Below the pieces are notes generated by a model. The model did not search any database. It was not told the origin of the DNA and saw only the letters and a list, made by a program, of their open reading frames with translations. A program made the position numbers and the translations under genes. A stretch of 24,239 nucleotides of DNA from a virus, in the IMG/VR virus record IMGVR_UViG_3300030331_001356, positions 1-24,239 of that record; one strand, given 5' to 3'. Shown here piece after piece: positions 8,822 through 10,404 of the stretch (positions are counted from its first letter, which is position 1; each line of letters begins with the position of its first letter).

Positions 8822-8825
8822 TTTT

Positions 8826-8839
8826 CTTGTGATATAATA
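8826..8839 (+). promoter_or_regulatory. Extended -10 promoter for the capsid unit
   Basis: CTTGTGATATAATA includes a perfect extended -10 (TGA-TATAAT, -10 at 8833-8838), just 5 bases after the scaffold stop. No good -35 is present at the expected distance, which extended -10 promoters tolerate. The identical 14 bases occur at 19700-19713, also at a gene boundary. Predicted transcription start is near 8845. Confidence 0.65.
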
Positions 8840-8979
8840 ACTTTACCAAAGTTCTGCCCTTCTTGGATAACAGATGTGGTGGCCATGATGGCCTTAAAAT
8901 CCGTTGGATAACTACGTTATGTTATAAGGTGTCCCTTTTAGGATAAATACCGAGGATATAAATTTAAGGAGGACATGAT
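8840..8979 (+). promoter_or_regulatory. Structured untranslated leader of the major capsid mRNA
   Basis: About 135 bases separate the predicted transcription start from the capsid ATG, exceptional in a genome where most genes overlap. The segment is richer in G+C than its surroundings and has no convincing reading frame. It contains two perfect short hairpins, GGCCA-TGA-TGGCC (8881-8893) and ATAAC-TAC-GTTAT (8908-8920). It also holds a direct repeat TTGGATAAC (8863-8871 and 8904-8912) and a possible third stem around 8931-8950. It ends in a strong ribosome binding site (AAGGAGG at about 8967-8973). A role in mRNA stability or translation level of capsid is inference. Confidence 0.55.
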
Positions 8980-9843
8980 ATGTCAGTACAAATAACTACA
9001 GCTTTTGTAGAACAATACAAAAGTAATGTATTTCATTTGTCGCAGCAAAAAGGTTCAAGACTTAGAGATGCAGTTAGAACTGAAACTGTAACTGGTAAAT
9101 CACATTTCTTTGAAAGAATTGGATCTACAGCTGCACAAAAAAGAACTTCCAGACATAGCGACACTCCGAGAGTCGATACACCTCACTCCCGTAGAAAAGT
9201 TACTATGGAAGATTACGATTGGGCAGACTTAATTGATCAAGAAGATAAAGTAAGAATGCTTATTAGCCCAGAGTCAGAATATGCACAAGCAGGTGCATGG
9301 GCAATGGGAAGAGCAATGGATGATGCAATTATTGATGCAGCTTCTGGTAACGCCTTTGGTGGCGTAGCTGGTGGCTCAACAGTAGCATTACCATCAGCAC
9401 AAAAAATTGTGCATGGCTCTGCTGGATTATCAGTTACAAAACTGATCGAAGCAAAAGAAATTTTAGATGCAAACAGCGTTGATCCTGAAGAACCAAGATA
9501 TTGCGTTGTAACATCAAAACAACTATCAGATTTGTTAGCAATAACACAAATTACATCTGCAGACTTTAACTCTGTTAAAGCATTAGTGCAAGGTGATATT
9601 AATACTTTCTTAGGTTTTAATTTTATTAGAACTGAAAGACTAGATACTAATTCATCTAGCAACAGATTAGTTTTAGCATTTGCAGAATCTGGTATAGGCC
9701 TCGCTGTCGGAGCAGATATTCAAACTAGAATAACTGAAAGAGCAGACAAAAATTATGCAACACAGGTGTTCTTATCAATGACAATCGGTGCAACTCGTAT
9801 CGAAGATGAAAAAGTTGTTGAAATAGAATGTACTGAAAGTTAA
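8980..9843 (+). CDS. Major capsid protein
   Basis: This 287-residue shell protein of the phage head has an expected HK97-like fold. The sequence SVQITTAFVEQYKSNVFHLS, then QQKGSRLRDAVRTE (residues 2-35), and later SRHSDTPRVDTPHSRRKVTM, then EDYDWADLIDQEDKVRML (about 57-94), match a marine podophage capsid family I recall well (Phage_capsid_2 type). The following AWAMGRAMDDAIIDAASGNA, then FGG, also fits. The start has AAGGAGG upstream. The gene has its own promoter and structured leader and is followed one gene later by a terminator-like hairpin, as expected for the most abundant virion protein. The length suits a small head. Confidence 0.9.
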   Translation: MSVQITTAFVEQYKSNVFHLSQQKGSRLRDAVRTETVTGKSHFFERIGSTAAQKRTSRHSDTPRVDTPHSRRKVTMEDYDWADLIDQEDKVRMLISPESEYAQAGAWAMGRAMDDAIIDAASGNAFGGVAGGSTVALPSAQKIVHGSAGLSVTKLIEAKEILDANSVDPEEPRYCVVTSKQLSDLLAITQITSADFNSVKALVQGDINTFLGFNFIRTERLDTNSSSNRLVLAFAESGIGLAVGADIQTRITERADKNYATQVFLSMTIGATRIEDEKVVEIECTES

Positions 9844-9857
9844 TAGGAGGAATTAAA

Positions 9858-10367
9858 ATGGCAACAGCTAAATCAGTCGAAATTACAGCACTAGACGCAA
9901 CGCCTAGAGAAGTCCTAGAAACTGGGAGTGCAGCAGGTAGAATGCGTGTAGCAAGTGGAACAATCGCAGCTGGAACTGGCGATATTGATAATGATGATGT
10001 ATTAATGATGGTACAAATTCCATCAAATGCAAAAGTATTATCAATTAAACTATTCAATGATGACTTAGATTCTAATGGCTCACCAACTTTGGCAGCCAAC
10101 GTAGGTCTTTACAAAGTTGATGGAACAGTTGTAGATGAAGATTGTTACGCAACAGCAATTACAGATTTACAAGCAGCAAATACTGCTGGTGTTGAAGTAG
10201 CTTTTGAAGCTAGAAATATCAATGCAGTTTCTAACTTTGCTTGGGAAGATGGTGGTTTATCATCAGATCCAGCAGAGCCTTTAAGAATTGCTTTGACTAT
10301 GTCTAACGTAGCAGCAACAGCAGCAGCTGGTGATGTAACTCTAATTGTTACATATGTTGTAGACTAA
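9858..10367 (+). CDS. Probable capsid decoration / minor structural protein
   Basis: This 169-residue, Ala/Thr/Val/Asp-rich, cysteine-poor protein probably forms beta sheets (MMVQIPSNAKVLSIKLFNDD at about 50-69; a closing strand VTLIVTYVVD). It directly follows the capsid gene with an AGGAGGA site 7 bases before ATG, and a terminator hairpin follows. Position and composition suggest a protein made in amounts similar to capsid that coats or stabilises the head; similar genes occur at this place in marine podophages in my memory. There is no sequence signature strong enough for a family name. A head-tail joining protein is an alternative. Confidence 0.6.
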   Translation: MATAKSVEITALDATPREVLETGSAAGRMRVASGTIAAGTGDIDNDDVLMMVQIPSNAKVLSIKLFNDDLDSNGSPTLAANVGLYKVDGTVVDEDCYATAITDLQAANTAGVEVAFEARNINAVSNFAWEDGGLSSDPAEPLRIALTMSNVAATAAAGDVTLIVTYVVD

Positions 10368-10378
10368 AAACAACAATT

Positions 10379-10404
10379 GAGGGTAGTTTCGGCTACCCTC
10401 TTAT
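10379..10404 (+). terminator. Terminator-like hairpin after the capsid unit
   Basis: A perfect 8-bp stem GAGGGTAG / CTACCCTC (10379-10386 and 10393-10400) encloses TTTCGG, which can be read as a UUCG tetraloop closed by a U-G pair. It is followed by TTAT, a short and poor U-tract. It is therefore probably a partial terminator or an mRNA 3'-end stabiliser, separating the capsid/decoration mRNA from the tail genes. The next gene begins 10 bases later. Confidence 0.75.

Follow-up and report, generated by a model that had tools for sequence, protein, structure and literature searches.

Why should a phage whose genes otherwise overlap one another keep a long gene-free stretch directly before its major capsid gene? 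The window analysed here, the whole 24,239-nt stretch of IMGVR_UViG_3300030331_001356, belongs to a podovirus-like, pelagiphage-like ocean phage, and its major capsid protein (gene at 8980..9843, + strand) has 77% identity to its counterpart in Pelagibacter phage EXVC032P Baldr and ~60% to those of HTVC010P-type pelagiphages. An earlier note on this DNA had pointed to 158 gene-free bases before the capsid ATG among overlapping genes, and measurement bore this out: the gap spans 8822-8979 (158 nt), no longer gap occurs in the rightward gene block, and the median gene junction in that block is a 1-nt overlap. The AAGGAGG said to close the gap is likewise present, as a predicted Shine-Dalgarno sequence at 8966-8972 (+ strand) ahead of the ATG at 8980. 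Judged from comparison with related sequences, the untranslated start of the capsid message is a conserved folded RNA, which is a larger finding than first noted. As to the records of two relatives used here, the locus tags of Baldr (L082) and Hodr (L090) seem swapped, with Baldr genes tagged EXVC031PHodr and the reverse.

The gap opens with a putative promoter of the host type. The extended -10 element that had been assigned to the capsid gene, TGATATAAT at 8830-8838 (+ strand), recurs in relatives, with TGNTANNNT standing before the 5'-terminal helix of the RNA (P0) in 67/72 of them vs a background of 2.9%; a scan found no -35-like hexamer. In 56 of the 67 promoter-bearing leaders among these 72 relatives, the -10 ends exactly 6 nt before the first paired base, and because this spacing is constant the predicted mRNA would start inside the P0 stem, with transcription predicted to begin at about 8845, the first paired base of P0. 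In L086 (1227-1403) and other HTVC010P-type records, the likely promoter and the first RNA hairpin share bases with a small gene annotated 5' of the capsid gene, and this gene may not be real, because close relatives (L240, L273) seem to be without the frame.

Downstream of the promoter, the conserved structured RNA of the capsid mRNA leader occupies 8845..8951 (+ strand), as delimited by relatives, covariation and a covariance model (R1) whose match in the window runs over 8834-8955 (97 bits, E 5.5e-22). Helix P0 pairs 8845-8848 with 8877-8880 (8845..8880, + strand) and encloses hairpin H1 (8853..8874, + strand), in which an outer stem UCUG/CAGA (8853-8856/8871-8874) surrounds an unpaired C8857, an inner CC/GG stem (8858-8859/8865-8866) and an AUAA bulge (8867-8870). 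There follow, all on the + strand, hairpin H2 (GGCCAUGAUGGCC, 8881..8893) and then UUAA; hairpin H2b (8908..8925), recognised by comparison as AUAAC...GUUAU pairing 8908-8912 with 8921-8925 and missing from a short form of the leader; and hairpin H3 (8928..8951), with a GGUGU/AUACC outer stem (8928-8932/8947-8951), an unpaired C8933, an inner CCU/AGG stem and an AUAA bulge at 8943-8946. H1 and H3 have one internal loop in common, a C opposite AYAA, and both are signature hairpins with the order outer stem, C, inner stem, ANAA, outer stem. Among the hairpins listed earlier from the single sequence, the one at 8881-8893 is real and conserved as H2, and the one at 8908-8920 is possible but relatives favour the register of H2b; the list overlooked both signature ANAA/C-loop hairpins (8853-8874, 8928-8951). 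The repeated TTGGATAAC is indeed found at 8863-8871 and 8904-8912, but the copies are structurally non-equivalent, the AUAA of the first being a bulge and the AUAAC of the second a stem strand. By eye, Baldr-type leaders (L082 1400-1500; L147-L157, L168, L170) have an additional long hairpin between H3 and the Shine-Dalgarno sequence, and an alternative pairing is possible because the 3' strand of this hairpin shows complementarity to that of P0/P1 as well.

That this is a conserved RNA element of the phage group, as the earlier note had suggested, held when conservation and covariation were checked in relatives. A first capsid search returned a comparable leader in 80/80 loci, with gaps of 133 to 191 nt in the 79 of 80 loci with enough upstream sequence. 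RNAalifold, run on a sequence-only alignment of 17 long forms, gave essentially the structure previously drawn by eye; 92.7% of cells pair in this alignment, 15/28 pairs changed on both sides, no shuffle reaches the observed values, and shifting the partner by one column lowers pairing to 45%. Model R1 gave one match per locus in 72/72 loci, always single and 5' of the capsid gene where whole genomes were searched, and in the R1-derived alignment of these 72 loci 94.3% of cells pair and 23/28 pairs changed on both sides. Because the 72-locus alignment is fitted to the model, we wrote a tree-based null of the R-scape type, under which 10/28 pairs covary, in P0, P1, H2 and H2b: two pairs are significant in P0 (where 5 pairs changed on both sides), one in H2, and 4/5 in H2b (97% of cells paired). 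An all-pairs test yielded two significant pairs, both inside the structure and none outside, while H3 has little covariation power because its stem is mostly invariant. Since G-U pairs far exceed C-A mismatches (88 vs 18, and 49 vs 2 in the second family), the structured molecule is the + strand transcript. We weighed whether the sequence acts instead as DNA (a promoter or protein site), or whether the similarity is common descent without RNA function, and we give this hardly any credence: a conserved promoter does lie at the 5' edge, but the compensatory changes exceed the tree-based null, G-U stands far above C-A, and the stems vary around fixed loops across distant phages. What was found is a covariation-supported structure in fixed association with one downstream gene, as in a cis-acting leader. 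BLASTN of the leader alone found no related named phage, because the stems diverge too fast.

HTVC010P-type phages carry a second form of the leader, whose first hairpin reads GUAAG-ACAA-(UUC GNAA GAA)-C-CUUAC, whose second reads AGUCU AAC AGACU followed by UUAA, and whose third reads AGAGA-UGC-(CUGUC..GACGG)-AGAAC-C-UUUCU. In this form 98.8% of cells pair and 12/23 pairs changed on both sides, and in the tree-based test 3/23 pairs pass, with one significant pair outside the structure. In the first of these hairpins the C/ANAA loop has the opposite orientation with respect to the hairpin end, and so we treat this loop as a module in its own right. The two leader forms are bridged by L032 and L033, intermediate leaders that a second model, R2, detects in the expected position (E 0.0012 and 0.019, respectively), and R1 and R2 each find one clear copy per genome.

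Folded as a single sequence, the window leader is not unusual (z -0.81), such that thermodynamics alone carries no signal and it is comparison that reveals the structure. Over 8845-8955 the comparative fold reaches -21 vs -28 kcal/mol for the computed minimum, and the conserved helices have a low computed probability in many relatives too; the predicted start puts the 5' end inside a helix of a comparative fold that is not the computed minimum. The window minimum-energy fold (8845-8990) contains an 11-bp pairing of 8858-8868 with 8962-8972 that hides the Shine-Dalgarno sequence. Predicted access to this sequence in relatives is variable and mostly higher than in the window (mean 0.35 unpaired), and we rejected the minimum-energy fold with its hidden Shine-Dalgarno sequence because hiding is no constant feature of relatives. 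A metabolite or temperature switch, with alternative leader folds that hide or expose the Shine-Dalgarno sequence, would have the 11-bp pairing of the window in its favour, but the inconstancy of that hiding and the lack of an Rfam match speak against it and make it very improbable; of 4227 Rfam models, none scores at or above its curated threshold, whether in the window or at twelve loci with the module, and a permissive Rfam search of four loci gave a single weak match, elsewhere. Either the conserved fold is stabilised by co-transcriptional folding, tertiary contacts or a bound factor, or the RNA is two-state.

The signature module recurs well beyond this group. Across 2.9 million viral contigs, the H3 pattern occurs in 50 stretches, and 50/50 lie 25-75 nt before a related capsid gene. 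Bacterial genomes hold 4 matches in all, of which 3, with no capsid relative nearby, look like chance and were rejected as real elements. The fourth (L145), labelled Verrucomicrobia TMED56, has a 77% identical phage capsid gene together with the RNA and is probably a phage contig binned with the bacterium. Vibrio phage CKB-S2, with a capsid protein of 31% identity, has two tandem modules in a leader of roughly 100 nt (L307 497-570), the first flipped, with a 10-bp outer stem, and the second, closely after it, in the normal orientation. Two freshwater-spring phages have one module each and a third has, by eye, an imperfect one. The module background rate is 0.027 per kb, and modules are absent from seven other scanned relatives, except for a coding-region match in Hodr. 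The same scan over the 24-kb window gave 4 matches, about the shuffled-sequence level, and for this reason a single module in one genome is no evidence, but association with the capsid gene is.

A broader search of viral contigs for the core GCCCG[AC]AAGGAYAAC, the GNRA-loop form, gave at least 240 matches, which we split by outer-stem length. Among the matches listed, 96/114 with an outer stem of at least 4 bp are followed by a capsid gene within 300 nt vs 24/126 with an outer stem below 4 bp, a split that is somewhat circular in that the capsid reference set was partly drawn from the same downstream genes. Free of that circularity is the enrichment of long stems itself, with stems of at least 4 bp making up 48% of the matches listed vs ~5% expected by chance (our estimate, from random pairing). 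PHROGs assigns representative downstream genes either to one of two families of major head protein or to proteins resembling scaffolds or proteases. L330, L334 and L372 each have two tandem modules upstream of a scaffold-like gene, and the related L321 gene is without a PHROG match. By eye, marine Autographiviridae (HTVC019P, HTVC131P, P-SCSP1p, P-SSP6, Ayaqvirus S45C18) have weaker look-alikes with short outer stems before their capsid genes, which the scanner left unscored. We propose, tentatively and leaning a little against it if pressed, that a wide range of tailed phages with different hosts may have in common, at their capsid genes, an undescribed module (outer stem, C, inner stem closed by a GNRA loop or another short one, ANAA, outer stem; flipped as well) that would be recognised by a common factor and serve as a general control point for capsid production.

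Such recurrence also brings up a protein-bound operator, in which the capsid or scaffold protein of the phage, or else an RNA-binding protein of the host, would bind the ANAA/C hairpins and adjust capsid translation, like coat-protein operators. The internal-loop letters are kept while the stems vary, the hairpins come in tandem, in several families they stand at capsid or scaffold genes, the loop is found in both orientations as expected of an autonomous recognition module, and the window RNA has alternative folds in which the Shine-Dalgarno sequence is hidden. That sequence, however, lies outside the conserved structure at a varying distance, and its predicted access varies among relatives around the mean given above, so that we regard an operator as possible though distinctly doubtful. 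The module resembles the MS2-type coat-protein operator of RNA phages, which has an outer stem, unpaired base(s), a two-pair inner stem and a small loop. The MS2-type operator differs in that it consists of one hairpin, located at the replicase gene, whereas the module usually has its large bulge on the 3' side and stands in tandem before DNA-phage capsid genes.

At the other end of the locus, the second gene of the unit (169 aa; 9858..10367, + strand, from the ORF list), for which Baldr has, at the corresponding position, a gene annotated as 'TonB-dependent receptor domain repeat protein', is followed by a GC-rich hairpin (10379..10400, + strand) with counterparts in relatives that sometimes have a U-tract like an intrinsic terminator. 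Over non-redundant relatives, this hairpin has a stem of at least 7 bp in 129/129, at least 4 GC pairs in 128 and a U-tract in 45; a 7-bp stem also occurs in 95/129 control windows, making stem length alone a poor discriminator, and so the weight of the hairpin lies in its GC content and position. Promoter and hairpin together delimit a unit of promoter, leader, capsid gene, second gene and hairpin. An extended -10-like sequence is also seen 3' of the hairpin in 25 of the 129 relatives. In the leader of T7, we take a 5' hairpin to have a role. The T7 record holds a comparable unit, with a promoter between scaffold and capsid gene 10A, an untranslated leader, and then terminator Tphi before the tail gene; T7 differs in that its phi10 promoter serves its own polymerase and its leader is without the ANAA/C module.

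A structured RNA at this position further recalls putL/putR of HK022, cis RNAs directly 3' of a sigma70 promoter, with bulged stem-loops and pairing from about the first bases (PMC9378689). A put-like antiterminator, whose nascent RNA would bind host RNA polymerase and give read-through of late-operon terminators, fits that likeness to putL (where pairing starts from about +1 to +3; PMC9378689), the hairpins or terminators that come after the second gene, and Skadi, an HTVC010P-type phage without its own RNA polymerase (PMC10504331). We nonetheless think it unlikely, in that put is about 70 nt with two stems and two copies at early operons, whereas the capsid leader RNA is about 95-125 nt with three or four hairpins and occurs once in each genome, ahead of the capsid gene; a set of several copies like that of a put or nut regulon was looked for and not found. 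With filters off, R1 and R2 had no significant match in HK022 27000-40700, a stretch presumed to include putL/putR. Weaker look-alikes precede the capsid genes of Autographiviridae too, and this family is defined by its own single-subunit polymerase. A phage polymerase was found in 1/21 module-bearing contigs, many of which are fragments.

Taking these observations together, the reading that we prefer, with a confidence that stops just short of even, is that the RNA is a 5' element working in cis to make capsid mRNA stable and high-yielding, with a specific partner. The RNA would act in cis on the capsid message: the helix closing the 5' end would guard it against decay that depends on that end (RppH, RNase E or RNase J), a common factor would find in the ANAA/C modules a specific fold or a surface to bind, a strong Shine-Dalgarno sequence would be left available downstream of the modules, and the capsid transcription unit would end at the hairpin before the tail genes, so as to give one long-lived, heavily translated message for hundreds of capsid subunits. 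Structures at the 5' end are known to stabilise mRNA, since RppH and RNase E require single-stranded 5' ends (PMC3997798). Favouring a stabiliser are the covariation, the single copy before the capsid gene, the constant promoter-to-helix spacing and the hairpin after the second gene, together with the strand asymmetry, the occurrence of the module ahead of capsid genes from many families and the order of elements shared with T7; the conserved internal-loop letters, which general 5' protection would not call for, make a specific partner likely. Against it stand a comparative fold that lies above the minimum and a predicted window ensemble that, unlike most relatives, hides the Shine-Dalgarno sequence.

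Conserved RNAs are known from marine phage sequences, as in the Rfam marine/phage motifs manA, wcaG and PhotoRC-II (PMC2864571), and for Skadi neither terminators nor riboswitches are reported (PMC10504331). We found no description of this RNA or its module in the openly licensed literature, and while a structured mRNA leader is a known kind of element, the RNA itself and its spread before capsid genes appear to be new. The recurrence of its signature hairpin before the capsid genes of many other tailed phages suggests an undescribed RNA element controlling capsid protein production. It gives a concrete point of attack on the question of how phages that have no polymerase of their own come to produce an excess of capsid protein, and it offers a new RNA family, a metagenome marker of capsid genes and possibly a new RNA-protein or RNA-ribosome contact.
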